A DNA stretch of 51,466 bases, from IMG/VR virus record IMGVR_UViG_3300042565_001652, positions 1 to 51,466 of that record; one strand, 5' to 3'. Source of the stretch: a virus. Within the stretch, counting starts at the first letter, position 1; each line of letters starts with the position of its first letter. Of the stretch, positions 4,571-39,008 are shown in pieces. The notes beneath the pieces were generated by a model, which was not told where the DNA came from, searched no databases, and was given only the letters and a program-made list of their open reading frames with translations. A program made the translations under genes and the position numbers.

Positions 4571-5008
4571 ATGATAAAACTAAAAAATATTCTAGCAGAA
4601 AATATGCGTCGTTTTAAAACTAAGAATTTAAACGAAGATGAAGATAAAGCATATAATGCACAACAAGATGCTATACGACTCAATAAAATTGCAAATCATT
4701 ATTTAATGGAGCAAGAGACCATTAATTTTGATAAAAATTATTTTACTAATAAAAAACAAGGTCAAATTACTTTTGACGATTACGGGTTCCCAACAGATGT
4801 TGATGGAGTTCAAATAACAGATTATGAAACTCAGTGGCAACCAAACTTCACCACAAAAAATTTTGGTGGGAGAGGAACTAAAGGTGGTAAATATAATTGG
4901 GTTTATGGTGAAACTGTTTCAACGGGTGTTAACGCTCCAGGGCAACAAAAACCAGGTATCTCAATTAAAGACGAGAATGAACAAGAGGTTGGTACATTTA
5001 TTTTTTAA
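4571..5008 (+). CDS. Putative capsid-targeted internal protein
   Basis: A 145-residue protein of unknown function whose N-terminus MIKLKNILAE matches the short peptide that begins at least seven other proteins in this window. That peptide resembles the T4 capsid-targeting sequence, which is cut after (L/I)-x-E by the prohead protease; the predicted cut here follows Glu10 (ILAE). The segment after it, NMRRFKTKNLNEDEDK, is charged. The C-terminal half is rich in Gly, Asn and Thr and has no recognised domain. It has its own upstream motif (4545) and AGGAA before the start. Confidence 0.65.
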   Translation: MIKLKNILAENMRRFKTKNLNEDEDKAYNAQQDAIRLNKIANHYLMEQETINFDKNYFTNKKQGQITFDDYGFPTDVDGVQITDYETQWQPNFTTKNFGGRGTKGGKYNWVYGETVSTGVNAPGQQKPGISIKDENEQEVGTFIF

Positions 5009-5017
5009 ATAAAAACT

Positions 5018-5098
5018 ATGGAACTAAATAGATTTAGACAATTATTAGAATCAACAAAAAGAGTGGGTTTTTTTTATTTTATGGTATTTTATTTATAA
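5018..5098 (+). CDS. Short ORF with capsid-targeting-like start (possible remnant)
   Basis: This 26-residue frame begins MELNRFRQLLESTKR, which again fits the M-x-(x)-L-x-x-(L/I)-L-x-E type of N-terminus, then runs into a T-rich tract coding FFYFMVFYL and stops. The homopolymer T run after GTGGG suggests a frameshifted or decayed internal-protein gene. It lies between the 4571 gene and a strong terminator. It could equally be a chance frame. Confidence 0.35.
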   Translation: MELNRFRQLLESTKRVGFFYFMVFYL

Positions 5099-5101
5099 GT
5101 G

Positions 5102-5127
5102 GTGCAGCATTATTGCTGCACTTTTTT
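5102..5127 (+). terminator. Intrinsic terminator
   Basis: GTGCAGCA (5102-5109) pairs perfectly with TGCTGCAC (5114-5121) around a TTAT loop, and six T residues follow at 5122-5127. This is a textbook rho-independent terminator. It separates the replication block and the 4571/5018 genes from the nuclease gene, which has its own promoter 10 bases further on. Confidence 0.92.
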
Positions 5128-5136
5128 ACTGTCCGG

Positions 5137-5166
5137 TTGTTTCCTATTATATTTTTTCTTATATTT
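5137..5166 (+). promoter_or_regulatory. Host-type (Bacteroidetes sigma-A) promoter
   Basis: TTGT at 5137-5140 is followed after exactly 19 bases by TATATTT at 5160-5166, set in TTCTTATATTTA. The same TTG(G/T), 19-base spacing and TTCTTATATTT sequence occurs at 39379, 40659 and 50873. This matches the Bacteroidetes housekeeping pattern of TTG near -33 and TAnnTTTG near -7. It would drive the nuclease gene at 5172; its location immediately after a terminator supports it. Confidence 0.75.
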
Positions 5167-5171
5167 AATGT

Positions 5172-6128
5172 ATGAAAAATGGTTATATTAATCCTGTCTA
5201 TAAGCTATCATTACGCGATGCTGACACAGTTCCTCGTAGAATATCATATTCACAATGGTACATGTATGAACGGTGTCCGTTATCCTGGAAACTTGCTTAT
5301 ATAGATGGATTGGCTCCATTCCAGGCTTCAATCGATACATGTTTTGGTACGGCATTCCACGAGACAATGCAGTATTATATTGAAGTTATGTATACCAAAT
5401 CGGTTAAACAAGCAGATGCGTTAGATTTGCGAAGTATACTAACTAACAAACTGCGAGAAGAATATCAACGCAATGTAACTGATACCGGATCACACTTTTC
5501 CAATCCATTGCAGTTAGCAGAATATTTAGAAGATGGTGTTGCTATTTTGGAATGGTTCAAGAAACGACGCAAACAGTATTTTTCTACTAAAGATTGGGAA
5601 TTGGTAGGCATTGAAATAGAGTTATGTACCCCGGCATCGCCTAGTAATCCATCGGTTTATTTATTTGGATTTATTGATTTGGTTATACGCCATATTCCAA
5701 CTAATACTATACATGTATATGATATTAAAACAAGTCGTGGCGGTTGGAACAAATATCAAAAATCAGATCCTTTAAAAGCAGCCCAACTCGTATTATATAA
5801 AAATAAATTTTCCGAGCAATTTGGTGTCCCGAAAGAAAATATTGTAGTTGAGTTTTTTATTGTGAAACGCAAAATGATTGAAGAGTCAATGTTTCCACAA
5901 AAACGCATACAATTATTTAAACCTAGCTCCGGCACGGTAACACAACGCAAAGTTCAACGTCAAATTGATGCATTTGTAGAACATTGTTTCGATTCTGAAG
6001 GAAATAAACTTGCAGATAAACCATATATGGCCATTTCTGGAAAGGGTGATAAAAATTGCAAGTATTGTCCATTCAAAACAGATTATATGAATTGTCCTAA
6101 AGAAAATAGGATTCGTGCCGAAAAATAA
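5172..6128 (+). CDS. Cas4/RecB-like PD-(D/E)XK nuclease with iron-sulfur cysteines
   Basis: This 318-residue protein carries the RecB/Cas4-type nuclease core: His63 (AFHET), Asp169 (GFIDLV), the Asp184-Ile-Lys186 pair (DIKTS) and a Gln205 motif (AAQLVLY). Cys35 near the N-terminus and Cys296, Cys299 and Cys308 near the C-terminus form the split four-cysteine arrangement that binds a 4Fe-4S cluster in Cas4 and AddB-like enzymes. Such enzymes resect DNA ends; in phages they serve recombination-dependent replication. No CRISPR array or Cas gene is nearby, so a CRISPR role is not indicated. A terminator and a host-type promoter directly upstream make it an independent, probably early unit. Confidence 0.88.
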   Translation: MKNGYINPVYKLSLRDADTVPRRISYSQWYMYERCPLSWKLAYIDGLAPFQASIDTCFGTAFHETMQYYIEVMYTKSVKQADALDLRSILTNKLREEYQRNVTDTGSHFSNPLQLAEYLEDGVAILEWFKKRRKQYFSTKDWELVGIEIELCTPASPSNPSVYLFGFIDLVIRHIPTNTIHVYDIKTSRGGWNKYQKSDPLKAAQLVLYKNKFSEQFGVPKENIVVEFFIVKRKMIEESMFPQKRIQLFKPSSGTVTQRKVQRQIDAFVEHCFDSEGNKLADKPYMAISGKGDKNCKYCPFKTDYMNCPKENRIRAEK

Positions 6129-6140
6129 CTATAATATAGT

Positions 6141-6350
6141 ATGATTCAATATAAACATAAACATGCATATGTATATCGATTTGAAATACAAAAGCGAGCC
6201 CCATTTGTAGGATGGGAAGTTATGGAATATGTTTTACTAACTGATGAAACTGGACCTAATAGTAAAAGTAACCGACAACTATTAGAAACTGGATTACGAA
6301 TAGCATATAATCATATGCCAAAGAGTGTTAAATTTTCATATGAAAAATAA
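6141..6350 (+). CDS. Hypothetical protein (69 aa)
   Basis: A 69-residue protein beginning MIQYKHKHAYVYRFEIQKR, 12 bases after the nuclease stop. It is basic, with mixed strands and a helical C-terminal half (NRQLLETGLRIAYNHMPK). No membrane segment, signal peptide or known motif is visible. It probably shares a transcript with the nuclease and the SLOG-type gene. Confidence 0.6.
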   Translation: MIQYKHKHAYVYRFEIQKRAPFVGWEVMEYVLLTDETGPNSKSNRQLLETGLRIAYNHMPKSVKFSYEK

Positions 6351-6351
6351 T

Positions 6352-6756: not shown

Positions 6757-6758
6757 TA

Positions 6759-17250: not shown

Positions 17251-18197
17251 AAGTAGTTTATGTGACCGGATGTTTAGGATTTATAGGATCCTATGTGACA
17301 CGTACGTGTTTAGAAAAAGGTTGGTATGTTAAAGGCGTTGATAAAATTACATATGCTGCAAATAAAGATGTATTAAATGAATTTAAAATATATCCAAATT
17401 TTTCTTTTGTGCATTGCGATATCAATGATTTAAAATTTTTATATGATTGTGATTATGTGATTAATACTGCAGCAGAAACACATGTTGGAAATTCAATTGT
17501 TAGCAGTTCTGAATTCATTAAATCAAATATCGATGGTGTTCATAATTTATTAGAACTTATAAAGAATCATCGAGGGGAACATTCTAAAAAACCAATATTA
17601 TTACATTTTAGTACAGACGAAGTATATGGAGATATTGAATCTGGCGAACATACAGAAGAACATCTATTAAAACCTTCTAATCCTTATTCAGCAACAAAAG
17701 CTGCAGCCGATATGTTAATATTAGCTTGGCAACGTACTCATAATGTACCGTATGTAATTGTTCGTCCTACAAATAATTACGGCATTGGTCAGTATGTAGA
17801 AAAACTAATTCCTAAAGCGTGCAAATTATTAACATTGGGAAAAAAAATACCATTACATAATGGTGGTACTCCCGTTAGAAATTGGCTACATGCACAAGAT
17901 ACTGCAAATTCTATAATTACAATCATAGAATCTGGCGTCGAAAATGAAATTTTTAATATATGTGGTGGGTTTGAACAAAGCAACTTGGAAACTGTTAAAA
18001 AACTTCTTATTATAAATAATATTGATATAAATGATATTGAAAAATATATTGATTTATCATATAATAGGCCAGGTATGGATGTTAGATATTCATTAAATGA
18101 TTCTAAACTAAGATCTCTAGGCTGGGAACCGAGGAAACAATTTGATGTTGAGTTAAAAGAAATTGTAAAATATTATAGAAATAAATTTATATGGTAA
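17247..18197 (+). CDS. RmlB-like NDP-glucose 4,6-dehydratase
   Basis: A 316-residue extended SDR. TGCLGFIGSY forms the NAD-binding GxxGxxG, STDEVYGD is the dehydratase-specific catalytic loop (Thr, Asp, Glu), and YSATKAAADML supplies Tyr-x3-Lys. VRPTNNYGIGQ, KLIPKACKLL and the NWLHAQD segment are also characteristic of dTDP-glucose 4,6-dehydratases. The reaction converts an NDP-hexose to the 4-keto-6-deoxy form. The operon therefore has two different 4,6-dehydratases. The nucleotide used is not certain from sequence. Confidence 0.85.
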   Translation: MKVVYVTGCLGFIGSYVTRTCLEKGWYVKGVDKITYAANKDVLNEFKIYPNFSFVHCDINDLKFLYDCDYVINTAAETHVGNSIVSSSEFIKSNIDGVHNLLELIKNHRGEHSKKPILLHFSTDEVYGDIESGEHTEEHLLKPSNPYSATKAAADMLILAWQRTHNVPYVIVRPTNNYGIGQYVEKLIPKACKLLTLGKKIPLHNGGTPVRNWLHAQDTANSIITIIESGVENEIFNICGGFEQSNLETVKKLLIINNIDINDIEKYIDLSYNRPGMDVRYSLNDSKLRSLGWEPRKQFDVELKEIVKYYRNKFIW

Positions 18198-19942
18198 AAG
18201 TTAGTGATGTTATAGCAGAATTTTTAGAAAAGAATAATATCGAAGTTGTATTTGGTATTATCGGGTCTGCTAATTCTCATATATACAATTCCATAAATAA
18301 CAAATCTAATATTAAATTAATCGCTGTACATCATGAACAAGCTGCCGTTATGGCAATGGGAGCATATTATAGATCTACTGGAAAACTGGCTGCATCACTA
18401 GTTACAGCCGGCGGAGGATCTTCGAATTCATTTACTGGTATTTTATCCAATTGGGCAGATTCAATTCCTGGAATTATTATATCGGGACAAGAACAATCAT
18501 ATTATATTAATGAATATTCAGATATGAGAATGTACGGTATTCAAGGATATGATTCAGTAGATACATTTTCAAAACATACAAAAATGTCTGTTCGAATCAC
18601 TAAAGAAAATGTATACGAAACATTTGAAAAGGCATTTGAAACAACACAAATCAATAGACCAGGTCCTGTATTTTTAGAAATACCATTTGATATTCAAGGA
18701 CAAATGGTTGAAGAACAACCTATCACCCCATTTAAAAAATTAAACACTCCAATGTTAAGTCCAAAAACATTAGACTTAATAGATTTACTTAACCAAAGTA
18801 AAAGACCAGTTGTAATTGGAGGACATGGAGTTAAATTATCTCAATCAGAAAAATTATTTAAACAATTTATTGAGCAACATAATTTACCCACAATATTAAC
18901 TTGGTCAGCAGTAGATTTACTTGAAGAAACTCATTCAAATAACTACGGTCGTTCAGGTGTTCAAGGACAACGTTCATCCAATTTTATAGTACAAAATTGC
19001 GATTTATTAATTGTAATGGGAAGTAGATTATCTCTATTACAAACAGGATATTCTAGAAAAGATTTTGCACCTAATGCAACAATAGTTCATATTGATATAG
19101 ACTCAACAGAAACAAATAAATTTGATGGATTACCAATTAATGAAGATATCGGAAACATCTTATATGATTTAATTTCAGTTGATTTAATTAAAGTAGACAC
19201 TACGGATTGGAAATTATATTGCGATAACATTCGAAACAAATATCCTAGAGTAATGCCTGAACATTTAGTTGATCCTACTAATTCATATACATTTATAGAT
19301 TGGTTCTCAAACAAAGTACCCGATAACTATACAATTGTTACGGACATGGGAACTGCTTTATTAAGTGGCTTTTATGGATTTAATATCAAACCAAATCAAA
19401 AGATGTTTACATCATTAGGTTTAGGCGAAATGGGATATGGTCTTGCCGCGGCGGTTGGCGCTGGATTTGGTAATAAGTCAGTATTATGTTTGAATTGTGA
19501 TGGAGGTATGATGATGAATTTACAAGAACTTCAAACAATTAAAACTCATAATTTGCCAGTTAAAATTGTTATCTTTAACAATGATGGCTACTTAATGATC
19601 AAGCATACGCAAAACATGTTATTTGGTGGAACGAAAACTTGCGTTGATAAATCAACAGGCGTAGAACTTCCAGAATATAAAAAAGTAGCAGATGCATTTG
19701 GATATGATTATTATACATTAGATAATGTTGATGATTTTTTAGCAGCTACCAATCAAAGTATTTTAGAAGTATTTATGGATCCGAATCAAGAATTTATACC
19801 TAAAGTAAAAGGTATCAAAAATAATGACAATACAATTCAAGCTGGATTACTAGAAGAAATGTCGCCATTGTTGCCTTTAGAAGATATTAAAGCGGCGATG
19901 GTTTCCGGAATTAATGAACGAAGTAATAGTATAACGAGATGA
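18191..19942 (+). CDS. Thiamine diphosphate-dependent enzyme (acetolactate synthase-like)
   Basis: This 583-residue protein has the three-domain layout of acetohydroxyacid synthase-type enzymes: N-terminal PYR domain with catalytic Glu49 in HHEQAAVMAMGAY, central domain, and C-terminal PP domain with NCDGGMMMNLQEL leading to VKIVIFNND, the ThDP/Mg motif. It probably activates a 2-oxoacid, most likely pyruvate. The relatives in sugar pathways (YerE type) attach a two-carbon unit to a keto-sugar. The next two genes make and use pyruvate and an aldehyde, so the three are probably one pathway. It overlaps the RmlB-like gene by seven bases. Confidence 0.85.
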   Translation: MVKVSDVIAEFLEKNNIEVVFGIIGSANSHIYNSINNKSNIKLIAVHHEQAAVMAMGAYYRSTGKLAASLVTAGGGSSNSFTGILSNWADSIPGIIISGQEQSYYINEYSDMRMYGIQGYDSVDTFSKHTKMSVRITKENVYETFEKAFETTQINRPGPVFLEIPFDIQGQMVEEQPITPFKKLNTPMLSPKTLDLIDLLNQSKRPVVIGGHGVKLSQSEKLFKQFIEQHNLPTILTWSAVDLLEETHSNNYGRSGVQGQRSSNFIVQNCDLLIVMGSRLSLLQTGYSRKDFAPNATIVHIDIDSTETNKFDGLPINEDIGNILYDLISVDLIKVDTTDWKLYCDNIRNKYPRVMPEHLVDPTNSYTFIDWFSNKVPDNYTIVTDMGTALLSGFYGFNIKPNQKMFTSLGLGEMGYGLAAAVGAGFGNKSVLCLNCDGGMMMNLQELQTIKTHNLPVKIVIFNNDGYLMIKHTQNMLFGGTKTCVDKSTGVELPEYKKVADAFGYDYYTLDNVDDFLAATNQSILEVFMDPNQEFIPKVKGIKNNDNTIQAGLLEEMSPLLPLEDIKAAMVSGINERSNSITR

Positions 19943-20796
19943 AAATAAAAGTAGCAATTTTAGGTACAGGTAATATCGGTACCGATCTCATGTTAAAGTC
20001 AATTAAAACTGACTTTATTGATGTAGTAGCATTCGTAGGAAGAAGATTGGATTCTGGCACGATGAGTATTGCTAAATCAAAAGGAATTAAAATATCAGAT
20101 CAAGGAATTGATTATTTCAAAAATAATCCTAATTGTTGCGAAGTGGTATATGATTGTACTAATGCTACAGATGCTAAAGAACATGCTAAAATCTTTAAAG
20201 AACAAGGAATCAAAGTAATTGATTTAACTCCAGCAAAAGTTGGGGATATGTGCGTACCTGATGTTAATGGAGATATTATATTAACGGATGATAATGTTAA
20301 CATGATTACGTGTGGGGGACAAGCATCAATGCCAATGTTACATTTAATATCAAAACATTGTAAAGGATTAGAATACGTAGAAATTGTGTCTCAAATTGCA
20401 TCTAAAAGTGCCGGAATGGCTACGAGAATCAATGTTGACAATTACATTAAAACTACAAAAAATGCAATAACTAAGTTCACCGGATGTAGAAAAACTAAAG
20501 TTATTCTTAATTTGAATCCCGCAGAACCATGCGTTGATATGCAAACTACTATTTTTATTAAAACTAAAGAAATTGATTTTAATAATTTAACAGAAAAGAT
20601 TGCAGAAAAAATAGAAGAATTAAAAACTTATATACCATATTACGAACTAGTATTACCGCCTACACTAAATGAAAACGGAGTAGTTGTATTAAGTATTAGG
20701 GTAAAGGGAACTGGAGAGTATCTGCCAGAATATGCCGGTAACTTAGATATTATTAACTGTGCGGCAATTAAGATTACAGAAAAATTAAAACATTAA
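19939..20796 (+). CDS. Acetaldehyde dehydrogenase (acylating), DmpF/MhpF-like
   Basis: A 285-residue protein with the Rossmann loop GTGNIGTD (9-16), the VYDCTNA region and the catalytic Cys125 in MITCGGQASMP, which is the signature of CoA-acylating acetaldehyde dehydrogenases. DmpF/MhpF oxidises acetaldehyde, passed through a channel from the aldolase partner DmpG/MhpE, to acetyl-CoA with NAD and CoA. The partner is encoded directly downstream (20799). Length is slightly below the usual 310. In catabolic operons this pair ends meta-cleavage of aromatic rings, but no ring-cleavage gene is present here. Confidence 0.9.
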   Translation: MKIKVAILGTGNIGTDLMLKSIKTDFIDVVAFVGRRLDSGTMSIAKSKGIKISDQGIDYFKNNPNCCEVVYDCTNATDAKEHAKIFKEQGIKVIDLTPAKVGDMCVPDVNGDIILTDDNVNMITCGGQASMPMLHLISKHCKGLEYVEIVSQIASKSAGMATRINVDNYIKTTKNAITKFTGCRKTKVILNLNPAEPCVDMQTTIFIKTKEIDFNNLTEKIAEKIEELKTYIPYYELVLPPTLNENGVVVLSIRVKGTGEYLPEYAGNLDIINCAAIKITEKLKH

Positions 20797-20798
20797 CT

Positions 20799-21797
20799 AT
20801 GAAAAATATAATCATTACGGATTCTAGTCTTAGAGACGGAAATCATAGCGTTAAGCATACTATTAGTTTAGACAGCATCGAAAGATATTGTCAATTTGCG
20901 GATAAAGCTGGAATACCTGTTGTAGAAGTAGGGCACGGTAATGGTTTAGCAGCATCGTCGTTATTGATAGGAAAATCTCCTAATACCGACAAAGAAATGT
21001 TAACTATTGCTAGAAAAAATCTTAAATCATCAAAATTAGGAGTTCATACGATTCCAGGCTTATCTACTATTGATGACGCAATGTTAGCTATCGATTATGG
21101 AGTCGATGTATTTCGTGTCGCAACACATTGTACTGAAGCAACTTTATCAAAATCCCACATAGAATATTTAGCAAAGACCGGTAAAACGGTATATGGGGTA
21201 TTAATGATGTCTGCTTTAATCACACCAGCTGAGTTAGCAGAACAAGCTAAGATCATGGAAGAATATGGCGCCCAAGCTGTTATCATTATGGATTCGACAG
21301 GCACTTATTTACCTGCTGACGTAAAAGAACGTATTAGTTTGTTAAAATCACAATTAAATATTAAAGTTGGGTTTCATGCGCATAATAATTTAGGATGTGC
21401 TGTAGCTAATTCATTAGTAGCTGCCGAAAATGGAGCTGAATTGATTGATGCGTGTATTCGAGGATTTGGGGCTGGAGCTGGTAATGCACCTTTAGAATTA
21501 TTATTACCTGTGTTTGAACGTAGTAATTTTTCTACCGGAATTAGTTTTGAAGAAACGATTAAAGAAGCAGATCGTGTAATGGATTATTTAGTTCCAACAC
21601 ATCCCGTATCCACGCCCATTAATGTTTTAACTGGATTAACAAAATTATTTTCCGGATTTGAGAAGCCGATAATTAAAGCATCTAAATTATATGGAATTGA
21701 ATATTCATCTCTTATTTTTGAGTTAGGAAATAGAAAATTAGTTGCAGGACAAGAAGATCTTATTTTAGAAGTAGCACAAAAGCTGAAGAATAAATGA
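20799..21797 (+). CDS. 4-hydroxy-2-oxovalerate aldolase-like (DmpG/MhpE)
   Basis: A 332-residue DRE-TIM-type metallo-aldolase. The first strand carries DSSLRDGNHSVKH with Arg12, Asp13 (metal) and His20 (catalytic base), and GFHAHNNLG supplies the metal ligands His193 and His195. DACIRGFGAGAGNAPLELL and the C-terminal helical domain that contacts the dehydrogenase are both present. The family splits 4-hydroxy-2-oxoacids into pyruvate and an aldehyde, or runs in reverse. It lies two bases after the dehydrogenase stop. Confidence 0.9.
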   Translation: MKNIIITDSSLRDGNHSVKHTISLDSIERYCQFADKAGIPVVEVGHGNGLAASSLLIGKSPNTDKEMLTIARKNLKSSKLGVHTIPGLSTIDDAMLAIDYGVDVFRVATHCTEATLSKSHIEYLAKTGKTVYGVLMMSALITPAELAEQAKIMEEYGAQAVIIMDSTGTYLPADVKERISLLKSQLNIKVGFHAHNNLGCAVANSLVAAENGAELIDACIRGFGAGAGNAPLELLLPVFERSNFSTGISFEETIKEADRVMDYLVPTHPVSTPINVLTGLTKLFSGFEKPIIKASKLYGIEYSSLIFELGNRKLVAGQEDLILEVAQKLKNK

Positions 21798-24985: not shown

Positions 24986-26101
24986 ATGAAAAACCTATCA
25001 AAAGAAGAGTTATTAAGCAGGATAGAAGCAATTAATAGGAGTAATGCTCTTATTTATTTCGATCTTAATGGTATCATATTAGGCGTTAATGACATTTTTT
25101 TGGAAGCAATGGGTTATGGTATAGGTAAACACGAAGATCTTATCGGTAAACACCATAGCATGTTTGTATGTGAAGATTACGCAAAGTCATATGAGTATGA
25201 AAAGTTTTGGGATATCTTAAGAAGTGGTAAGTATTATCAAGGTGAGTTTGAAAGACGAAGAAAAGATGGAAGTCTTATCAATCTTCAAGCAACTTATAAC
25301 CCTATTTTTGATGAAGACAACAAGATTACCAAGATAATGAAAGTTGCTACTGACATTAGTGCAATTGTCAATAGCAAGAAACAGATAGATGCCATCAACA
25401 GAAGTACAGCTCTTATTAGTTTTAACATTGATGGATTTATAACAGATGCAAATTCTATATTCTTAGAAACCATGGGTTATAAAGCTAATGAAAAAGCTAA
25501 AGTCATTGGAAAACATCACAGCATTTTTGTTAGCTATGAGTATTCTAAATCTGATGACTATACTAAGTTTTGGGATAGTTTAAGAAAAGGTAAGTATTTT
25601 GATGGAATATTTGAAAGAAGAAAAGTAGATGGATCTACTGTTTATTTACAAGCATCTTACAATCCTGTTTTAGACAGTAAAGGAAATATCACTGATGTAG
25701 TTAAAATTGCAACCGATGTCACTGAGGCTGTAAACAATAAGAAGAAAATCGACGACTTAACAACAAATTTACAGGTAGAACTTGATAACTCACAAAAGCT
25801 TAAGAATGCAATTGAGATAGAAAAAGATGCAGCACTAAATGACTTAGATGTCATGATGAAAAAAAGCCAAAGTGAGCTAATAAAAATAATTGTTAAAGTT
25901 GCATTAGCTGTTATAGTAGGAGTAGGAGTTGTAACAACAACATTATACTGGATGGCTATTATAACAAACCAAGACACACAAATAATAGGCTCTACATGGA
26001 GTAATATGTTTAGTGTATTATTAACAAATGCCTTTTCAATAGTTGGTACAATCATGGGTATCAAGTATGCTACACAAGAAGGCAGTAAAGAAAAAAAATA
26101 A
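24986..26101 (+). CDS. Two-PAS-domain protein with C-terminal membrane hairpin
   Basis: A 371-residue protein with two tandem PAS domains (about 15-128 and 135-250), a coiled-coil stretch (250-298) and two membrane helices (about 300-326 and 337-360), then a short charged tail GSKEKK. The PAS copies repeat at a spacing of 121 residues and share GKHHS(M/I)FV and (T/S)YNP(I/V) motifs typical of PAS domains from bacterial chemoreceptors. No kinase, HAMP or receptor signalling domain follows; the output end looks like a holin. It lies between a holin-like gene and an endolysin-like gene. Possible roles are redox- or ligand-dependent control of lysis or interference with host sensing. Confidence 0.75.
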   Translation: MKNLSKEELLSRIEAINRSNALIYFDLNGIILGVNDIFLEAMGYGIGKHEDLIGKHHSMFVCEDYAKSYEYEKFWDILRSGKYYQGEFERRRKDGSLINLQATYNPIFDEDNKITKIMKVATDISAIVNSKKQIDAINRSTALISFNIDGFITDANSIFLETMGYKANEKAKVIGKHHSIFVSYEYSKSDDYTKFWDSLRKGKYFDGIFERRKVDGSTVYLQASYNPVLDSKGNITDVVKIATDVTEAVNNKKKIDDLTTNLQVELDNSQKLKNAIEIEKDAALNDLDVMMKKSQSELIKIIVKVALAVIVGVGVVTTTLYWMAIITNQDTQIIGSTWSNMFSVLLTNAFSIVGTIMGIKYATQEGSKEKK

Positions 26102-27800: not shown

Positions 27801-29579
27801 ATGTCAAAATTTAAAGTAATAAATACAATTATACAGGAAGAAGTTGAATCTGTTCTTACGGAACAACTAATACAAGAACAAACTTCACCCAAATGGACTA
27901 AAGTTGATCAACTATTTCGATCGTCTGGTGAAACACCAGGAAACTTTTCTGGGTTAAGAACATATTCATTTGATGATCCTGAAATAGGCATGGTACAATT
28001 ATTTAGTGATGGTACTGCATATATTCAATCATCAAACACCGAAACAACGTGGAACTATTCAGAAACCGGCGGTACACCTAAATTATCAGTTGATGGCAAC
28101 GAATTAGAAGTAATTAAAGTTTCGTCGTTAAGAAAACAGAAACAAAGCAAACAAAAACAACAAGCAATTACAGCAAAACAAGCTCGCGACAAAGCTCCAT
28201 CTACCATTGATACTATTCAAACTGCAATGGATTGGCTTGGATTGATTCCAGGATATGGTGATATAATAGATGCTGTTAATGCTATAATATATTTTTCTAG
28301 AGGTAAATATTTAGAAGGTACTTTATCTTTAGTTGCAATCATACCAGTTGTAGGATCTGGTATAAAATTAGGTTTTAAAGGTGCTATACAAACTTTAGGC
28401 GGAATGAGTTCGGCATCTAAAATTTGGAAACAAGCTGCAGGTGGATCTAGCAGTAGTATTACACAGTTAACTAAATTTTATCAAGAAGCAGTTGCGTCTG
28501 GTAAACTTAGCAAGTCTCATTTAAAACTAGTAGCTGATAAAGGCGATGCTGTGGCTAACATTCTTTTAAAGGGAAAGAAATACTTCGGACCTGGGGTTGA
28601 CAGACAAATAGATCGAGTTATTGGTTCATTAAACAACACAGTAACTAGGCCTATTAGACAATCTTTTGCATCAAAAGTTGTTGCGGCAGCTAAAGCATCA
28701 AAAGCTGCTAAAACTGGTGGTAATGTTTTAAATAAAGTGTTAACTATTGGATCTGTTGGTGTATATAGCACTGCTAAAAATATCTTAAAAAAATATGGAG
28801 TAGGTACAAGAGAATTAAAATTGCTTAAGGATGCGATGGATGTTCGATGGGCAAAGCAACTAATAAATAGTCCAGATAAAACTGCACTTATATTTAAAAG
28901 CAATAAAAAGTATTCAGCTGCGGAAGCGGCATCATTTGGAATACCTCCGTGGCTTCAAGTAAAATCTTTTTCTCAAATTAGAGATTGGATGGATAATGTT
29001 AAACAGACCGATCCATTAAAATGGAAAAAGATATCAGATTATATTGCCAGAACATCCACTGATAATAAATTGTATAAAACATATGTTGAAAATACATTTT
29101 CACAAGCATCTAACATATTTCGACCTGGGGCAGTAGCTACTGCGGGAATGCCTGAAATGTTTTCTAAAATAATTAAATTAGATTCATATCGATTGTCAAA
29201 TCCAAAGAACGTTGATATTGTATACAATGAATTAGAAGATTTCGCAGAAAAAATTGGATGGGACACAGAAGATAATCCACAAGGAGTTATCATGCCGGCG
29301 TTGTATATGGTATATAATAACTACTTAAAAACATATGTAGAGCAACCAGTAGCTGCTGTAACTGGAGTTGCAGCTGGGTTAGGAATCGGATCAGTTGGTA
29401 ATGCAGACCAATCTGCGACTGTCGATGAACCGAGTACTATTAGTACGGTTGGATCTCAAATAAAAATCGATTTTAAAAATGCATCTGGACAAACCACTGA
29501 TCGATTAGCAACACTGCGTGAAAAGGGATATTCGGAAGAAGAGATACTTACATTAAAACGCGAATTGGATATCGAATGA
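27801..29579 (+). CDS. Large putative internal virion protein with pre-toxin-like segment
   Basis: This is a 592-residue protein with an N-terminus (MSKFKVINTIIQEE) of the capsid-targeting type seen in its neighbours. A hydrophobic segment at about 136-195, including LGLIPGYGDIIDAVNAI and SLVAIIPVVGSGIKLG, resembles pre-toxin linker domains that precede effector domains in polymorphic toxins. The region 280-350 is Ala/Lys-rich, and the C-terminus holds an Ala/Gly segment (AAVTGVAAGLGIGSVG) that could enter a membrane. No toxin catalytic domain is recognised. It may be packaged in the head and cross the host envelope with the DNA. It overlaps the next gene by four bases. Confidence 0.6.
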   Translation: MSKFKVINTIIQEEVESVLTEQLIQEQTSPKWTKVDQLFRSSGETPGNFSGLRTYSFDDPEIGMVQLFSDGTAYIQSSNTETTWNYSETGGTPKLSVDGNELEVIKVSSLRKQKQSKQKQQAITAKQARDKAPSTIDTIQTAMDWLGLIPGYGDIIDAVNAIIYFSRGKYLEGTLSLVAIIPVVGSGIKLGFKGAIQTLGGMSSASKIWKQAAGGSSSSITQLTKFYQEAVASGKLSKSHLKLVADKGDAVANILLKGKKYFGPGVDRQIDRVIGSLNNTVTRPIRQSFASKVVAAAKASKAAKTGGNVLNKVLTIGSVGVYSTAKNILKKYGVGTRELKLLKDAMDVRWAKQLINSPDKTALIFKSNKKYSAAEAASFGIPPWLQVKSFSQIRDWMDNVKQTDPLKWKKISDYIARTSTDNKLYKTYVENTFSQASNIFRPGAVATAGMPEMFSKIIKLDSYRLSNPKNVDIVYNELEDFAEKIGWDTEDNPQGVIMPALYMVYNNYLKTYVEQPVAAVTGVAAGLGIGSVGNADQSATVDEPSTISTVGSQIKIDFKNASGQTTDRLATLREKGYSEEEILTLKRELDIE

Positions 29580-32728: not shown

Positions 32729-33181
32729 ATGAAGCAACAATTAACAGAATGTGGGTGTGACTCTGAAATGGATCATAGCAACATCGACAACTACATGTTT
32801 TTTCAAAATCTCAAAACCATCAAAAAAATGGTAGATTCGATGTTACAATTGGATCCGGCACATGTAGACCAAATTCTATCAGATGGACATGGTTGGGCTG
32901 CAGATCATATTGCCACATCTAAAGATGATGTAGAAGAAGTTGGAGGATTCTTGATGAATAATATGTCAACATCCGATTCATATAACAATCAACAACCACA
33001 ATTCGTTCCAGTAGATTTTAAAAATCATCTACGTAGTGTAATGTCTGAAAAAATACAACGTGTAGATGATGGATGGGCAGTATATCCAAGCAAAGGTGGT
33101 AAACGTTTAGGTACACATCCAACAAAAAAAGCTGCATTAAAACAATTGGCAGCAATTGAAATTTCAAAACATAAAAAATAA
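32729..33181 (+). CDS. Hypothetical protein with conserved C-terminal phage motif
   Basis: This 150-residue protein has a CGC motif near the start and a helical first half. The C-terminus, DDGWAVYPSKGGKRLGTHPT then KKAALKQLAAIEISKHKK, matches a W-x-V-x-S-x-x-G-K-x-L-G tail found at the ends of many unrelated phage proteins, where it may be a shared virion or processing tail. It overlaps the next gene by one base (TAATG). Confidence 0.6.
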   Translation: MKQQLTECGCDSEMDHSNIDNYMFFQNLKTIKKMVDSMLQLDPAHVDQILSDGHGWAADHIATSKDDVEEVGGFLMNNMSTSDSYNNQQPQFVPVDFKNHLRSVMSEKIQRVDDGWAVYPSKGGKRLGTHPTKKAALKQLAAIEISKHKK

Positions 33182-33600
33182 TGCAGAAGCTTAAACACAT
33201 ATTAATCGAAGCAAAAACCGGGTGTCCGGTTGCAACACAAGATATTCATGTTAATTTAAAAAATCGTCAACATGCAATAGATGAGTATTACTATGGTCCT
33301 GCTAATCCAGATAAACCTGGATCATATTGGAAAGATGCAGCAAAGCGTTGGAAAATTGATGAAGCTACTGCAAAAACAATGAAATGTGCAAATTGTGCAG
33401 CATTTGATGTTTCTGATAAAATGTGGAATTGCATGTCTAAAGGAATAGAAGGCAAAGAAAAAAATATCGATGCAATGGCTACAATTGAGAAAGCTGACTT
33501 AGGTTATTGTAACTTTTTACATTTTAAATGTGCCGGTACAAGATCTTGTACTGCTTGGGTAACAGGAGGTGCATTAGATGATAAGGATCTAACTAAATGA
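33181..33600 (+). CDS. Cys-rich putative internal virion protein
   Basis: A 139-residue protein with a capsid-targeting-like N-terminus (MQKLKHILIE, predicted cut after Glu10). The rest has a conserved set of cysteines: Cys16, CANC near 63-66, Cys at about 82, and GYC then FKCAGTRSCTAW near the end. The CxxC...C...C-x-x-W pattern resembles, at a low level, high-potential iron-sulfur proteins. Whether it binds a metal or cluster cannot be told. It overlaps the following gene by four bases. Confidence 0.6.
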   Translation: MQKLKHILIEAKTGCPVATQDIHVNLKNRQHAIDEYYYGPANPDKPGSYWKDAAKRWKIDEATAKTMKCANCAAFDVSDKMWNCMSKGIEGKEKNIDAMATIEKADLGYCNFLHFKCAGTRSCTAWVTGGALDDKDLTK

Positions 33601-33992
33601 TGAAATTAAAAAATATATTAAATGAAAGCAATGTTGTTGATCCAATGCAACTTGCAAAACCATTTTTTAAAGAGTTTTCAAAACAAATGAAAACATCTGC
33701 TAAATTTTCATATTTAGGATTAAAAAACAAAGAACATATTTTCAGTGCACCTATAGATGATTTAGGAACATTGAAACTAATATTTTCAAAAGCAGAATTT
33801 GTAGCAAAAGTTTGCGATTCGTATGCATACTTTGGCATTGTGTATCTGCTAAACGGATTAGAACAGTTTGACGCAACAGTTTGTTTGATAACAAAAACAA
33901 AAAATTCATTCGATACTAAATTGTTTGATGATGCTGATTCAGATTTTAATAATTCAAAAACCAATTTTTCAAACATAATAAAAAAGTTATAA
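33597..33992 (+). CDS. Putative capsid-targeted internal protein (131 aa)
   Basis: The N-terminus (M)MKLKNILNE repeats the capsid-targeting-like peptide nearly exactly as in the protein at 4571 (KLKNIL). The remaining 120 residues, with PFFKEFSKQMKTSAKFSYLG and YAYFGIVYLLNGLEQFDATV, form an apparently folded alpha/beta domain without a recognised family. ATG 33600 is the alternative start. The stop overlaps the next ATG (TAATG). Confidence 0.6.
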   Translation: MMKLKNILNESNVVDPMQLAKPFFKEFSKQMKTSAKFSYLGLKNKEHIFSAPIDDLGTLKLIFSKAEFVAKVCDSYAYFGIVYLLNGLEQFDATVCLITKTKNSFDTKLFDDADSDFNNSKTNFSNIIKKL

Positions 33993-34660: not shown

Positions 34661-34674
34661 TATTTATTAATATG
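34660..34674 (+). promoter_or_regulatory. Exact 15-base motif ATATTTATTAATATG ending in a start codon
   Basis: One of three exact copies (also 37483 and 47473) in which the last three bases are the start codon of the next gene, here 34672. There is no Shine-Dalgarno sequence, so the motif may be a phage promoter giving a nearly leaderless mRNA, or a translation-initiation signal of the Bacteroidetes type. Confidence 0.55.
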
Positions 34675-35004
34675 AAACTAATAAATTTACTATTTGAAAA
34701 AAAATCTAAACCAGATACATTCGAAGACTTCGCAGACACTAGAGAGTCTGGAGCAAAAAAGATTGCGGATTCTGCTCACAGCAAAGGCGGATTAGCATTA
34801 TTAACGTGGCATCACTTTAAAGTTAAACTTCCATATTATAAAAAAGCTGCGGCCGGTAAATTTGATTTAAAAGCTGCAAAACGCGAATTTAAAGCAACCT
34901 ATAGTAAAATATCTACATCGATGACTCAAACTGAATTTCAACGAGAAGTAGGTCGATTAGAAGTACTAGGTGAATTGATTATACGTGAAGAACGAGGCAA
35001 GTAA
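34672..35004 (+). CDS. Putative capsid-targeted internal protein (110 aa)
   Basis: This 110-residue basic protein begins MKLINLLFEKKSKP, with a predicted prohead-protease site after Glu9 (LFE). The segment SKGGLALLTWHHFKVKLPYY and a Lys/Ala-rich C-terminal half suggest a DNA- or membrane-associated protein. It has the exact ATATTTATTAATATG motif at its start codon. Confidence 0.6.
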   Translation: MKLINLLFEKKSKPDTFEDFADTRESGAKKIADSAHSKGGLALLTWHHFKVKLPYYKKAAAGKFDLKAAKREFKATYSKISTSMTQTEFQREVGRLEVLGELIIREERGK

Positions 35005-35889
35005 ATGATACATCTAAAATCTATACTGTCAGAAGCATCTCTAGCATTTGACAATGAGTTCAAAGAAATGGTTAAGCAATGGGAAGGTCCTGGACCAACT
35101 GATGCTAATGGAAACCATCTAGCATATGATGATGCTAACCCTAGGGTTCCAGCAAAACCAGGGGCAACGATAATTGGTACACTAACTATTGGATATGGTA
35201 CAACAGCAGCGGTATATCCGTCGTTAAAACCAGGGATGAAAATATCAAAAGCTGCAGCTGAAAAGTTGTTAGCAAAAGGCATTGCAGACAATGAAGCAAA
35301 AGCAGCTAGGTTGATTCCTAAATTTGCGTCATATCCTAAATATGTACGAACGGCAATATTAAATGCAATCTATCGAGGTGACCTAGGACCAGTAACTCGC
35401 AAAATGATTAATCAGGGCAAATGGGATAGAGTTGCAGATGAATATCTTAATCATCCGAATTATCTAAATCCAGGCCGATTTAAAGGTGTAGTTAAACGAA
35501 TGAAATCTAATGCAGATGCATTTCGTAAATATGCTTCTGAACTAAAAGGAACTGGTAGTAAAAGTAAATCTGTTGCAACGAGCTCAGGTATGCCAAAAGA
35601 TCCTGCGGCAGGATCATTGATAGGTAAACTGGTATATCCTAGAAAACGAACATCAGCTGACTATGTAAATGTTCGTACGTCCCCAGAAGTAAATACCGGA
35701 TTAATTCACAATTTTCAAACCAAAATAACATGGCCGGATCCAGTTGGTAAAATCATGAAAATCTCAAAAGATGACCAAGGTCAAACATGGTATATGGTTA
35801 AATTACAACCAGGTGTAGGCAACACTACCGGAGTTGGATATGTTCGGTATGACAATGTAACAACTGATAAGAATGCTAAATATATCTAA
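35005..35889 (+). CDS. Lysozyme (GH24-like) with SH3-type domain and capsid-targeting-like start
   Basis: A 294-residue protein. After the N-terminal peptide MIHLKSILSE, residues about 15-180 resemble a T4-lysozyme-type muramidase: Glu27 in KQWEGPG is the likely catalytic acid and TIGYGTT (61-67) the downstream active-site motif, with LNAIYRGDLGPVTR later. A linker (180-205) leads to an SH3-like wall-binding domain (about 205-290, VNVRTSPEVNTG). The putative targeting peptide suggests a packaged enzyme that opens peptidoglycan at entry rather than, or as well as, a lysis enzyme. It begins directly after the previous stop. Confidence 0.75.
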   Translation: MIHLKSILSEASLAFDNEFKEMVKQWEGPGPTDANGNHLAYDDANPRVPAKPGATIIGTLTIGYGTTAAVYPSLKPGMKISKAAAEKLLAKGIADNEAKAARLIPKFASYPKYVRTAILNAIYRGDLGPVTRKMINQGKWDRVADEYLNHPNYLNPGRFKGVVKRMKSNADAFRKYASELKGTGSKSKSVATSSGMPKDPAAGSLIGKLVYPRKRTSADYVNVRTSPEVNTGLIHNFQTKITWPDPVGKIMKISKDDQGQTWYMVKLQPGVGNTTGVGYVRYDNVTTDKNAKYI

Positions 35890-35930: not shown

Positions 35931-36125
35931 ATGGAGAATTTTATAGATAAATTATTGATTACATCCATTAACCATATGAAAACTAATTCATGGGAATGGC
36001 CAGATCACTGGGATACAGATCGAAAGCAACGATTTTTAAATCAATGTTTAGACTATGCAACAAAAAATGAGTTCTATGAACAATGTGCAATTATCAGAGA
36101 TGTCCAAAAAACAATCAACAACTAA
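35931..36125 (+). CDS. Small protein upstream of ClpS (UVR-like helix)
   Basis: A 64-residue acidic protein that opens MENFIDKLLITSINHMKTN. Its last part, EFYEQCAIIRDVQKTI, resembles a UVR motif (the helical hairpin found in UvrB and McsA), a domain that in McsA works with Clp ATPases. It overlaps the ClpS-like gene, suggesting a functional tie to Clp proteolysis. The UVR assignment is weak. Confidence 0.55.
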   Translation: MENFIDKLLITSINHMKTNSWEWPDHWDTDRKQRFLNQCLDYATKNEFYEQCAIIRDVQKTINN

Positions 36126-36366
36126 ACGAGGTCAGTGGCAAGTAATATTGCATAATGATGATATTAACACGTTTGAACATGTGATCGGATGCTTAATGGA
36201 TATATGTAGCCATAATTATTTACAAGCCGTACAATGTGCGAATATAGTGCATAACACAAAACAATGTTCAGTGTATGTTAGTAATTATGATGATTGTGAA
36301 ATGGCATTCGAAGAACTATATTCTCAAGGTTTAAATGTTACATTAGAAAAATACAAACAACGATGA
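36100..36366 (+). CDS. clpS: ClpS-like protease adaptor
   Basis: The product shows the ClpS core: WQVILHNDDINTFEHVIGCL, which holds the substrate-binding Asn-Asp-Asp and the first helix, then CANIVHNTKQCSVYVSNY and a final helix. Starting at ATG 36100 gives 88 residues; ATG 36076 or 36055 would add 8 or 15. ClpS delivers N-degron substrates to ClpAP. A phage copy could redirect the host Clp protease. The gene overlaps its upstream neighbour by 26 bases and the downstream gene by four. Confidence 0.8.
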   Translation: MSKKQSTTKRGQWQVILHNDDINTFEHVIGCLMDICSHNYLQAVQCANIVHNTKQCSVYVSNYDDCEMAFEELYSQGLNVTLEKYKQR

Positions 36367-36539: not shown

Positions 36540-36542
36540 GTT

Positions 36543-36929
36543 ATGGGTAAAAGATCAGTATACTCAGGTGAATCGGCGAAGGACCGTTCAATAAATTTGA
36601 TGGATAAATTCATCACAAAAAATGCAAATCGAGAAAAGAATCATCCAATCCTTCCAGCACGCCGTAAAGATCCTAACATTGCATTAGAATTATGGCCACT
36701 TAAAGATCAAATTGAATACTGGGAAACGCGCACAGATGCAGATCGTTTTGACGAACAATATTCAGCATATTCTACATGGTATGATGATCTTAAACAAAGA
36801 AGCGGTGTGTATCCATCTACATTCTTAGATTTTACAAGCAAATTAAAAACGGAGATGCGAGAAATGTGGGAACGTAAAATGCATCCTAAACATGCTATTA
36901 TCGAACTCCGCAAAAAAGGAGTATATTAA
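36543..36929 (+). CDS. Hypothetical protein (128 aa)
   Basis: A 128-residue charged protein (MGKRSVYSGESAKDRSINLM start), rich in Trp and Asp, including LWPLKDQIEYWETRTDADRF. It sits three bases after the preceding gene and two bases before the HNH gene. No domain is recognised. Confidence 0.55.
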   Translation: MGKRSVYSGESAKDRSINLMDKFITKNANREKNHPILPARRKDPNIALELWPLKDQIEYWETRTDADRFDEQYSAYSTWYDDLKQRSGVYPSTFLDFTSKLKTEMREMWERKMHPKHAIIELRKKGVY

Positions 36930-36931
36930 TT

Positions 36932-37483
36932 ATGTCTCAGCAGTATAAGTATGTGTATGGAAAAGGACGTACGGCATATGATTTGCCAGAGTCTGATATT
37001 CGATATGCAATAGCTAATACTAAATCAAATGCCGAAGCAGCTCGTTTCTTAAAGATATCATTCACTACATACAAAAAATATGCTAAAATGTATGTGGATT
37101 CTGAAACCGGTAAAACTTTGTATGATATGCATACAAACCAAGCTGGACATGGTATTACTAAAGACAGTCAACGAGCAGCAGCAGGTCGATATACAATTGA
37201 TGGTATATTAGAAGGCAAGTATCCAAACTATCCAACATGGAAGCTTCGTAATCGGTTGTTGGCATTGAACATAATGGCAGAAGAATGCCAGTGCTGTGGA
37301 TATGCAGAACGAAGAGTTACTGATGATACGGTACCGTTGCTATTAGATCATATTGATGGTGATGAAACCAATCATCGCATAGAAAATTTACAAATGCTTT
37401 GTTTGAATTGTTATTATCAACAGGTAGGTGCTCCTTTTAATAAAGAGAAGGAAATGTTTTGGAACTATAATGCACTAGGCTGA
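36932..37483 (+). CDS. HNH endonuclease with N-terminal helix-turn-helix
   Basis: A 183-residue protein. Residues 20-50 form a helix-turn-helix-like region (SNAEAARFLKISFTTYKKY). The C-terminal HNH domain shows a zinc-type CQCC (119-122), Asp139-His140 in LLDHIDGDETNH, Asn152, and CLNC (157-160). This arrangement is that of free-standing homing-type HNH endonucleases of phages. It does not visibly interrupt another gene, so a homing role or a packaging-nicking role remains open. Confidence 0.85.
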   Translation: MSQQYKYVYGKGRTAYDLPESDIRYAIANTKSNAEAARFLKISFTTYKKYAKMYVDSETGKTLYDMHTNQAGHGITKDSQRAAAGRYTIDGILEGKYPNYPTWKLRNRLLALNIMAEECQCCGYAERRVTDDTVPLLLDHIDGDETNHRIENLQMLCLNCYYQQVGAPFNKEKEMFWNYNALG

Positions 37484-37497
37484 TATTTATTAATATG
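37483..37497 (+). promoter_or_regulatory. Exact 15-base motif ATATTTATTAATATG ending in a start codon
   Basis: Second exact copy of the motif, immediately after the HNH gene and ending in ATG 37495. The next in-frame ATG is at 37504, so the motif would give a start with a short or absent leader. Confidence 0.55.
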
Positions 37498-38244
37498 GTA
37501 TCAATGAAAGCTCTTATTATCGAAGGACGTTACGATAGCATAGTATCCGAACTGTCTCGTAGATTGCTTAAGGTAGTAAAAGATAGTTATTCTTCCGTAA
37601 CAGATCCAAAAGGTATGTTTGCTGGAAAAAAGATATACTTCAAATCCGGAGAATCAGTTCCTAATATCGATGATGATTCTGTATTCAAAGAGATTTATTT
37701 TGAAGAAGTAGAAAATGCTACTATACCATTAGATTTCTATCTAGCACTTAAAGTGCAATGGGTTGAAGGTTTAAATGATTTCCGAATCGGTGGTGATGCT
37801 TACAACGCAACAGGTAAAAATGCAGATGAAATGCCATTGGTTGAAATTCGCTTTGAACTAGATCCAGCGGAATATCCTCAAGTATTAAGTGAAGTTGCAA
37901 TTGAACTGCGAGACACATTGCGTCATGAAATTGAGCATACTACACAATCCGGATGGAACACAATTGATTCTAAATATTTGCCATCAGACATGGCGCAACG
38001 ATCCAAAATACAGACTGGTGATCAACGCCCGGCGAAATATTTCTTACTTAAAAAAGAAATCCCAGCAATGATACAAGGAATGTATCTCAAAGCTAAAAAG
38101 AAACGAGTACCATTTAAAATAGTAGTTGATGAATACTTGGGACGATGGGTTGCAAATGGAACTATTACTGCACAAGAAAAACAACAAATAATAGATACCT
38201 GGAGAACATATCTCCCTAAATTAGGAATACGACAGGAGTTGTAA
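37495..38244 (+). CDS. Putative packaged HExxH metalloprotease-like protein
   Basis: A 249-residue protein with zinc-protease motif HEIEH (His144, Glu145, His148) in ELRDTLRHEIEHTTQSGW. The N-terminus MVSMKALIIEGRYDS is of the capsid-targeting type, with a cut predicted after Glu10 (IIE-G); ATG 37504 (MKALIIEGRYD) is an equally good start. The third zinc ligand is not identified. If active, it might cut host proteins after injection or act in head maturation. It overlaps the next gene by one base. Confidence 0.65.
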   Translation: MVSMKALIIEGRYDSIVSELSRRLLKVVKDSYSSVTDPKGMFAGKKIYFKSGESVPNIDDDSVFKEIYFEEVENATIPLDFYLALKVQWVEGLNDFRIGGDAYNATGKNADEMPLVEIRFELDPAEYPQVLSEVAIELRDTLRHEIEHTTQSGWNTIDSKYLPSDMAQRSKIQTGDQRPAKYFLLKKEIPAMIQGMYLKAKKKRVPFKIVVDEYLGRWVANGTITAQEKQQIIDTWRTYLPKLGIRQEL

Positions 38245-39008
38245 TGATTAAACTAACTAATTTACTAAATGAAGATTTGCGTAGATGGGTCAAAGAAAAA
38301 TGGGTTGATCAACACGGTAGGCCTTGTGGCAATGATAAAACAAAAGGCGTAAAAAAATGTCGTCCTAGTAAAAAAGTATCCGACGATACTCCTAAAACAT
38401 GGAGCTCATTTGATAAAAAAGAAAAAGAATCATTAGTACGACAAAAGAGACAGGTAGGTATGGGTAACCGTACTCCTAAAGCTGAAGAAATAAATTTAGA
38501 GGAAAAGACGAAAGCAAAACGAGATGCTTGTTATCACAAAGTAAAAGCGAGATATACTAGAAACGGAGGCACATGGCCATCGGCATATGGATCATTAGCT
38601 TTATCTAAGTGTCGCAATGTCGGAGCAAAAAATTGGGGAAATAAAACAAAGGAATCCATGGAAGAAATGACGGTATGCAATGAATGTGCAATTGTAATGT
38701 TAGAAGATATTAAATCCGGAAAACTTAATGTATTAACCGAAGCAGAATATCAAGGTCGCACAGTTAAATTGGGTAAACCAATGCGAGGCGATGTTAAGAA
38801 GTTTAAAGTGTATGTTCGCAATGCAGACGGCAATGTAGTTAAAGTTAACTTTGGCCATGGCGGTACCTCAGCAAAGAGAGCTGGCCAGAAAACAATGCGC
38901 ATAAAAAAATCTAATCCGGCTCGTCGTAAAAGCTTCCGGGCAAGACATAACTGTGAAACTCCAGGACCTAGATGGAAAGCAAGATATTGGTCTTGCCGTG
39001 CTTGGTAA
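38244..39008 (+). CDS. Basic putative internal or scaffold-type virion protein
   Basis: A 254-residue, strongly basic protein. It opens MIKLTNLLNEDLRRWVKEKW with a predicted cut after Glu10. Region 1 (about 15-50) reads KEKWVDQHGRPCGNDKTKG then KKCRPSKK. Region 2 (about 92-130) has RYTRNGGTWPSAYGSLALSK. The C-terminal part has NVLTEAEYQGRTVKLGKPMR and ends with SFRARHNCETPGPRWKARYW then SCRAW, a tail seen widely in phage head-associated proteins. It may bind DNA in the head. Confidence 0.65.
   Translation: MIKLTNLLNEDLRRWVKEKWVDQHGRPCGNDKTKGVKKCRPSKKVSDDTPKTWSSFDKKEKESLVRQKRQVGMGNRTPKAEEINLEEKTKAKRDACYHKVKARYTRNGGTWPSAYGSLALSKCRNVGAKNWGNKTKESMEEMTVCNECAIVMLEDIKSGKLNVLTEAEYQGRTVKLGKPMRGDVKKFKVYVRNADGNVVKVNFGHGGTSAKRAGQKTMRIKKSNPARRKSFRARHNCETPGPRWKARYWSCRAW

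Follow-up and report, generated by a model that had tools for sequence, protein, structure and literature searches.

A recurrent N-terminal peptide resembling T4 capsid targeting sequences marks a diverse set of putative head-packaged phage proteins

The virus record IMGVR_UViG_3300042565_001652, a 51,466-base stretch that was analysed in full and is referred to here as the window, encodes a set of dissimilar proteins that begin with the same kind of short peptide. An earlier note on this DNA had proposed that the peptide acts like the capsid targeting sequence (CTS) of phage T4, so that the proteins carrying it are packaged in the head and injected. Our analysis supports that interpretation, and we put the probability that the peptide is a T4-type CTS with gp21-type cleavage at roughly 80%. 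The tag, its constrained positions, the modularity of the proteins that bear it and a gp21-type protease gene can be read directly from the DNA, and from them we infer binding, cleavage, packaging and injection. Newly made tagged proteins would bind the prohead scaffold core through a hydrophobic face at residues 4 and 7, the gp21-type protease (Peptidase_S77 family, S77) would cleave after L/I-x-Glu10 with loss of the peptide, and the mature protein would remain in the head and enter the host along with the DNA. Targeting and cleavage by the tag are strongly indicated by the sequence evidence set out below, whereas we are less sure that most of the set is injected than that it is targeted to the capsid and cleaved.

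Enrichment of the tag at protein starts

Bases 1-47040 of the window are 99.93% identical to positions 112909-159977 of a 160-kb record, G001 (213 called genes), which was used as its near-identical genome; genes were called with our own greedy caller, and start positions can be wrong. The tag was scored with a strict pattern, [LIM]xx[IL][LIF]xE, whose start was allowed at residues 2-6. This pattern matches 8 of the 73 called window genes and 17 of the 213 in G001, as compared to 0.08 and 0.41 expected from the internal rate, and it is found at 0 of 314 internal Met positions. When residues 2-20 were shuffled 300 times, the window gave a mean of 0.19 and a maximum of 2 matches, and G001 a maximum of 3. 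A motif search over the genome likewise bears out the shared peptide, as a position-specific scoring matrix (PSSM) trained on other genomes placed 6 of 73 window genes and 15 of 213 G001 genes beyond the 99.9% level of the null, where 0.07 and 0.21 were expected.

Eight window genes, named here by their first base, had been listed in the earlier note as sharing a 10-residue peptide, and seven of them do so (4571, 33181, 33597, 34672, 35005, 37495 and 38244); the gene at 27801 does not carry the 10-mer, and a fragment at 5018, also listed, is the orphan of another tag class. Gene 37495 falls well under the 99.9% PSSM level (P 0.0085), and its membership rests on its orthologues, because its score is weak and its Glu10 is invariant across 10 aligned sequences (the window included) in which the orthologues are 59-69% identical. 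The gene at 39041 (58 aa; equivalent to G001 151978) scores slightly higher, is one of the 8 window matches and was rejected as a tag member, being probably a chance match.

The final G001 list was obtained from the 17 strict matches by removing 94315 and 151978 as likely chance matches and adding 7161 and 14408, whose tag forms lie outside the strict pattern. The resulting 17 genes (7161, 14408, 15028, 15548, 26128, 45633, 95975, 96407, 103396, 110124, 117479, 146118, 146534, 147609, 147942, 150432 and 151181) fall into 16 body groups. Gene 117479 is equivalent to window 4571, genes 146118, 146534 and 147609 to 33181, 33597 and 34672, and genes 147942, 150432 and 151181 to 35005, 37495 and 38244. 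Also considered and rejected were G001 94315 together with its cluster of 36 MNID/MNIN..LTEW proteins, G001 101520, and the thiamine pyrophosphate (TPP) enzyme at window position 18191 (MVKVSDVIAEFLE).

Constrained residues and calibration on other phages

The 10-residue CTS of the T4 internal protein IPIII directs targeting mainly through residues 4 and 7 and processing through residues 8 and 10, and T4 gp21 cleaves after L/I-x-E (PMC9026906). The likeness to T4 in position, length and cleavage pattern that had been claimed for the window peptide holds up, as its four constrained positions (4, 7, 8 and 10) are those defined by mutagenesis in T4 IPIII, and ten sites chosen by eye in nine window proteins, the weak 27801 included, all read L/I-x-E. 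As a control for circularity, genes were chosen by residues 2-3 alone (M[IM][KR]; 61 of 1303 genes in seven genomes, orthologues included). In this set, hydrophobic residues occupy positions 4, 7 and 8 in 67, 74 and 69% of cases (background 27%) and positions 5 and 6 in 18 and 11%, and Glu is found at position 10 in 54% as compared to a 6% background.

Applied to 100 kb of T4, the strict pattern matches 7 of 148 called genes, four of which, IPII, IPIII, Alt and gp24, appear in a table of cleaved head proteins (PMC9026906). It matches 0 of 56 genes in 50 kb of SPO1, the sole non-T4-like control genome, 12 of 233 called genes in Flavobacterium phage immuto and 6 of 252 in Microcystis phage Mel-JY01. 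The single strict match in S-SM1 is a cytidyltransferase of the T4-GC190 family that starts MKKFSAFLNE-AERSF, and T4-GC190 is among the proteins newly detected by proteomics in purified S-SM1 virions (PMC3037559). Residues 4, 7, 8 and 10 are invariant in 29/29 distinct N-termini of T4-GC190 relatives, taken from the best 80 of 126 loci, and residue 9 varies. S-SM1 T4-GC190 is the nearest experimental anchor for the tag and belongs to another T4-like lineage. A tagged protein from locus L228 is not claimed as a homolog of cyanophage T4-GC190, as tblastn gave no match; a search of virion papers for Syn9 gp114, a cyanophage relative of 38244, gave no result.

A peptide that is hydrophobic along one side might instead route proteins to a place other than the head, such as the GroEL/GroES that the phage itself encodes, a site in the membrane or a complex formed during infection. 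The phage does encode a GroEL (window 42778-44397) and a GroES (G001 107035-107334), and in T4, according to a 2005 paper, proteins are reportedly directed to GroEL by the gp23 N terminus. Such routing is nonetheless very unlikely, since it leaves unexplained the nearly fixed Glu10, the L/I-x-E sites of the window, the match to T4 IPII, IPIII, Alt and gp24, and the second site of two tag classes, usually 12 residues on, that is described next.

Tag classes with a putative second cleavage site

Three classes of tag were distinguished. Tag A is the 10-mer, whereas in tag B, MxxLKNILAE-NMRRFGTKNLxE, the 10-mer is continued as NMRRFxTKNLxE. Scanning IMG/VR for ENMxRFxxKN returned at least 119 stretches. 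Among the 96 matches in the 80 loci listed, the farthest possible ATG lies no more than 20 codons upstream in 91; in the remaining five, the frame is open further upstream in two, and three lack an upstream ATG (two closed by a stop codon and one at a contig edge). Although the positions of the second site were left free in the scan, the distinct proteins among the matches listed have L/I at +10 in 83/83 and Glu at +12 in 73/83. Tag C, MxxxRFxQLLES[TS]MG[ND]V[KR]PL[LI]xE, was reached by following the open reading frame (ORF) at 5018, and its 25/25 matches, representing 17 distinct proteins in 16 body groups, all lie four codons after an ATG. The next hydrophobic-x-Glu occurs at +12 in 14/17 of these proteins (background 1.6%). 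Tags B and C thus differ in sequence and share the same usual +12 spacing, which counts as two observations because the members within each class probably share ancestry; no fixed spacing to a second site was found in groups that carry tag A only. Because tags B and C carry this second site, usually 12 residues on, a dodecapeptide would be excised from them as well.

A shared start could also be the relic of a 5'-end duplication, or of a translation or promoter cassette, with no role at the protein level. An AT-rich stretch with a T-run (TATATTTATATTAAA) at 4529..4570 (+ strand, as are 4571 and the genes described under the tagged genes of the window), immediately upstream of 4571, is common to the tagged gene G001 110124 and is possibly a promoter plus tag cassette; clear sharing of upstream DNA was seen in this one pair only among five genes aligned. 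The fragment at 5018 is a tag with no body, much like T4 alt.-1, whose annotation describes it as one part of an alt start that was duplicated. The tag B copies among the matches listed nevertheless use varied synonymous codons (AAA 47/AAG 36 and TTT 58/TTC 25), and their pairwise codon differences comprise 16404 synonymous as compared to 10449 non-synonymous changes. Since residues stay fixed while their codons vary, selection acts at the protein level, and Glu10 is retained in 37495 orthologues that are only 59-69% identical; a DNA-level relic is therefore improbable in the extreme.

Searching cultured phages by tblastn with the bare tag peptides gave no match, a search with little power for such short queries. 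The tag peptide strings matched no papers, and in a search that left most subscription journals uncovered we recognised no account of such tags from phages of Bacteroidota; the literature found on capsid targeting and prohead proteases is mainly T4, P1 and SPN3US work.

Modularity of the tagged proteins

The 357 motif-positive genes, a redundant set, fall into 110 body groups by BLASTP (E<1e-3, single linkage) in the loci examined, with about 9 chance matches expected among the 3416 genes surveyed. One of the 110, the MNIN..LTEW group of 36 members, is probably not a tag family. In an alignment of 104 proteins, from which 9 of the 110 representatives were omitted (the MNIN..LTEW group among them) and to which three window proteins were added, the consensus is limited to the first 22 residues, bar two isolated columns. 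The tag also comes and goes on related bodies. The tagged 862-aa L228 protein is 52% identical over a body of about 830 residues to the untagged 831-aa product of G001 55590, and their alignment starts just past the tag, at residue 23 of the former and residue 4 of the latter. As for the DUF5872 body of 38244, some of its occurrences carry the tag, some have other starts, and in some the body follows the Met directly.

Pfam searches on the 104 members recovered 11 families, each with one or two members, which include phage lysozyme, peptidoglycan-binding, GDSL lipase, SET domain, 5'-nucleotidase and DUF5872 proteins. Among the tagged proteins of the window, 35005 (lysozyme) and 38244 (DUF5872) alone lie above the Pfam cut-off, and PHROG matches, to profiles of unknown function, were obtained for 38244 and 32729. 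PADLOC returned marginal matches alone for the cargo (best E 0.0015). Injected IPI* of T4 gives protection from a restriction enzyme, and the internal proteins of T-even phages vary widely, with the CTS as their one conserved part (PMC3012670). By analogy with these precedents, counter-defence and host takeover are our guesses for what the cargo might do. A tagged protein (MIKLKNLITE) encoded at L101:10570-11010 has a SET domain (4.6e-8) and is a candidate injected lysine methyltransferase.

The prohead protease and its neighbors

The head module of G001 is T4-type by PHROG profiles, with terminase, portal, head maturation protease and major head protein genes. The proposed mechanism depends on the protease, and although its gene does not lie within the 51-kb window, G001 encodes a Peptidase_S77 protein (E 9e-34) between the portal and major head protein genes, so that the absence of a protease, which the earlier note had named as grounds for refutation, is not what was found. 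S77 is present in 11/14 related records, in 7/27 tag B records (8.6 expected by length if one per genome) and in 7/16 tag C records (5.5 expected on the same basis); the HK97-type protease S78 was found in 0/27 and 0/16 of these records. Expected numbers are hand sums of record lengths divided by 160 kb, and the searches took the longer records (27 of the 80 listed tag B loci and 16 of 24 tag C loci); four records belong to both the 14-record and 27-record sets. A hydrophobic-x-E occurs near the N terminus of gp21 and at the aligned gp23 site, the latter reading V-K-E in this phage.

Tag-like starts also occur beside the protease gene. G001 66606, close behind gp21, begins MNKLKKLYRDFFGLTEQ, and MIKLKKLLGE opens the second gene after gp21 in G005 (125181), whose G001 homolog, 66085, overlaps the gp21 end. 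These starts fit a reading in which the tag marks parts of the prohead core or scaffold that gp21 cuts, most of them being degraded or leaving and few being delivered, and T4 gp22 and gp67 are indeed fragmented by gp21 and mostly removed (PMC9026906). We regard a scaffold role as unlikely, since the cargo is hypervariable (110 body groups), its lysozyme, SET domain, GDSL hydrolase and nucleotidase are unlike scaffold, and a study of purified virions reports the tagged family of S-SM1 (PMC3037559).

Three consecutive G005 genes soon after gp21 (124245-125906) have tag or near-tag starts, MIKLKKLLGE, MIKLSDLLNE (which follows an upstream Met) and MIKLTDLVKG. G001 67503, between the protease and the major head protein, is called gp22-like solely for its location; PHROG profiles gave no match for this gene, and its relative in immuto carries a different annotation. 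Between the protease and this gene lies a gene for ribosomal protein bS21 (PF01165, 4e-10; L175:7068-7307, G001 67068-67310), and in Mel-JY01 an annotated RpsU directly follows the protease gene.

Several points weigh against a T4-type CTS. Conservation in regex-picked sets is partly circular, as the regex fixes positions 4, 7, 8 and 10; this circularity is avoided in the M[IM][KR] set and the T4-GC190 relatives, and the PSSM was trained on a regex-picked set and tested on other genomes. The 61 M[IM][KR] genes are not independent. In T4, three of the seven matches (one of them gp2) are not listed substrates, and IPI, whose start differs, is not matched. S-SM1 is unenriched (1/228 as compared to 0.56 expected; 2/228 with a looser pattern), and some members of tagged families begin untagged. 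At the gp23 site, this phage has V-K-E in place of L/I-x-E. Three of the 14 related records lack S77, at lengths of 110 and 115 kb (both reached via the phrog_7595 domain) and 68 kb, and S77 is found in 0/6 further shorter records (1.3 expected), one of which also belongs to the 27-record set; all S77 counts come without a random contig set as control. Virion proteomics for this phage group was sought, with immuto as the phage searched for, and none was found.

Tagged genes of the window

Gene 4571..5008 encodes a 145-aa protein with the bipartite tag B MIKLKNILAE / NMRRFKTKNLNE, whose residues 1-10 and 11-22 (nt 4571-4636) end in two L-x-E sites 12 residues apart; most of its 80 kept relatives match in the N-terminal part alone. 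At 5018..5098, the orphan tag C is a 26-codon ORF (MELNRFRQLLESTKRVG.. / MELNRFRQLLEST..) whose first 13 residues fit MxxxRFxQLLES[TS]MG.. before it ends early, its cargo body missing. The 592-aa protein at 27801..29579, which starts MSKFKVINTIIQEEVESVLTEQ, is the weakest member, outside the 10-mer pattern, and its N terminus is at most a possible longer propeptide (..VESVLTE-Q). The label of pre-toxin-like protein given earlier, taken to mean 27801, finds no backing, as Pfam and PHROG yielded no match up to E 0.1 and the predicted structure has a predicted local distance difference test score (pLDDT) of 51, too poor for the model to be used in a fold search.

A 150-aa protein at 32729..33181 is new to the set. 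It has a short tag, MKQQLTE-C, with a six-residue lead before Glu7, and matches phrog_3684 (function unknown); its L245 homolog bears a full bipartite tag B. The tags of the following genes are MQKLKHILIE-A on a Cys-rich 139-aa protein (33181..33600), MMKLKNILNE-S on a 131-aa protein (33597..33992), and the 9-residue MKLINLLFE-K on a 110-aa basic protein (34672..35004), whose immuto orthologue is tagged too (MRLLELLRE). A 294-aa Phage_lysozyme (PF00959) protein with the tag MIHLKSILSE-A is encoded at 35005..35889, and a 249-aa protein with an HExxH motif (LRHEIEH, by eye) and the tag MVSMKALIIE-G at 37495..38244; the predicted structure of the latter (pLDDT 66) has no fold match at E <0.001. 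The last member, a 254-aa basic Cys-rich protein at 38244..39008 with the tag MIKLTNLLNE-D, has DUF5872 in its N-terminal part and phrog_7595 at its C terminus. The phrog_7595 domain (the C-terminal 90 residues) is found in phage records of 18-345 kb in diverse N-terminal contexts, a number of them CTS-like.

Host and other genes of the window

By major capsid protein, the nearest isolates are immuto (57.5%) and Mel-JY01 (54%). Window 48665-50869 encodes a 734-aa secreted protein with a CHU_C type IX secretion signal (1.3e-13), an SprB repeat and a PKD-like domain. The secretion signal and SprB repeat point to a Bacteroidota host, and this phage product is a candidate substrate for the type IX secretion system of such bacteria.

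Within the tagged-gene cluster, 36055-36366 encodes a Phage ClpS (PF02617, 2e-17), which might act on N termini newly created by proteolysis. Window 18191-21797 encodes consecutively the TPP enzyme, an acetaldehyde dehydrogenase-type protein and a DmpG-type HMGL-like aldolase, a row that is unusual in a phage and lies near DegT aminotransferase and glycosyltransferase-like genes (the latter by eye). The product of 24986-26101 has two PAS domains, halves that are about 67% identical in DNA and a C-terminal hydrophobic stretch (by eye). A tRNA-guanine transglycosylase (TGT)-like protein (PF01702, 3e-7) is encoded at 70-1320 and, together with the annotated queuosine genes and dpdA of immuto, suggests 7-deazaguanine DNA modification.

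Relation to known systems and implications

The tags share with the T4 system of IPI, IPII, IPIII and Alt an N-terminal propeptide of about 10 residues that is hydrophobic at positions 4, 7 and 8, has Glu10 and ends in L/I-x-E, together with a gp21-type protease, unrelated variable bodies and a truncated orphan start (T4 alt.-1, MELITELFDG.., resembling window 5018). T4 has a handful of named internal proteins, whereas G001 has 17 tagged genes, and the two bipartite classes, a Bacteroidota-type host and a cargo mostly without recognisable domains set the present system apart. S-SM1 shares the 4/7/8/10 pattern in its virion-associated T4-GC190, but has no other strict match (a second gene fits a looser pattern), and no bipartite tag was seen there. 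Phage immuto (vB_FspM_immuto, Immutovirus) has an annotated prohead protease as well as its motif-positive genes; it differs in its tag flavours (MQKLAGIITE and MENFDLKKFLVE) and in carrying the HExxH domain untagged in the C-terminal part of gp088. In the giant phage SPN3US (protease gp245), many head-packaged proteins are ejected and propeptides can be cut at several sites; in contrast, these propeptides are long and, in the accessible part of the source, have no common short tag (PMC10052503). The kind of system is thus known, and its scale, bipartite tags and host group are new as far as our searches show.

The T4 head contains internal peptides, to which excised dodecapeptides may be likened. 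A wider proposal, which we hold only tentatively and rate somewhat below even odds, is that T4-like Bacteroidota phages have a general virion-loading system with three interchangeable tag classes, two of them twin-site, on about a hundred unrelated proteins. The virion would then deliver an arsenal of effectors before phage gene expression, and a second cargo may consist of the excised dodecapeptides (NMRRFGTKNLSE and STMGNVKPLISE), remaining inside the head.

If the CTS interpretation is right, a tag of 10-22 residues would identify head-packaged, and probably injected, phage proteins from sequence alone, so that candidates for host takeover and anti-defence could be listed from a block of phage dark matter. 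It would also supply tags that can be tested as they stand for bringing foreign proteins into phage heads, and would extend the T4 internal-protein system, on a larger scale, to phages of the Bacteroidota.

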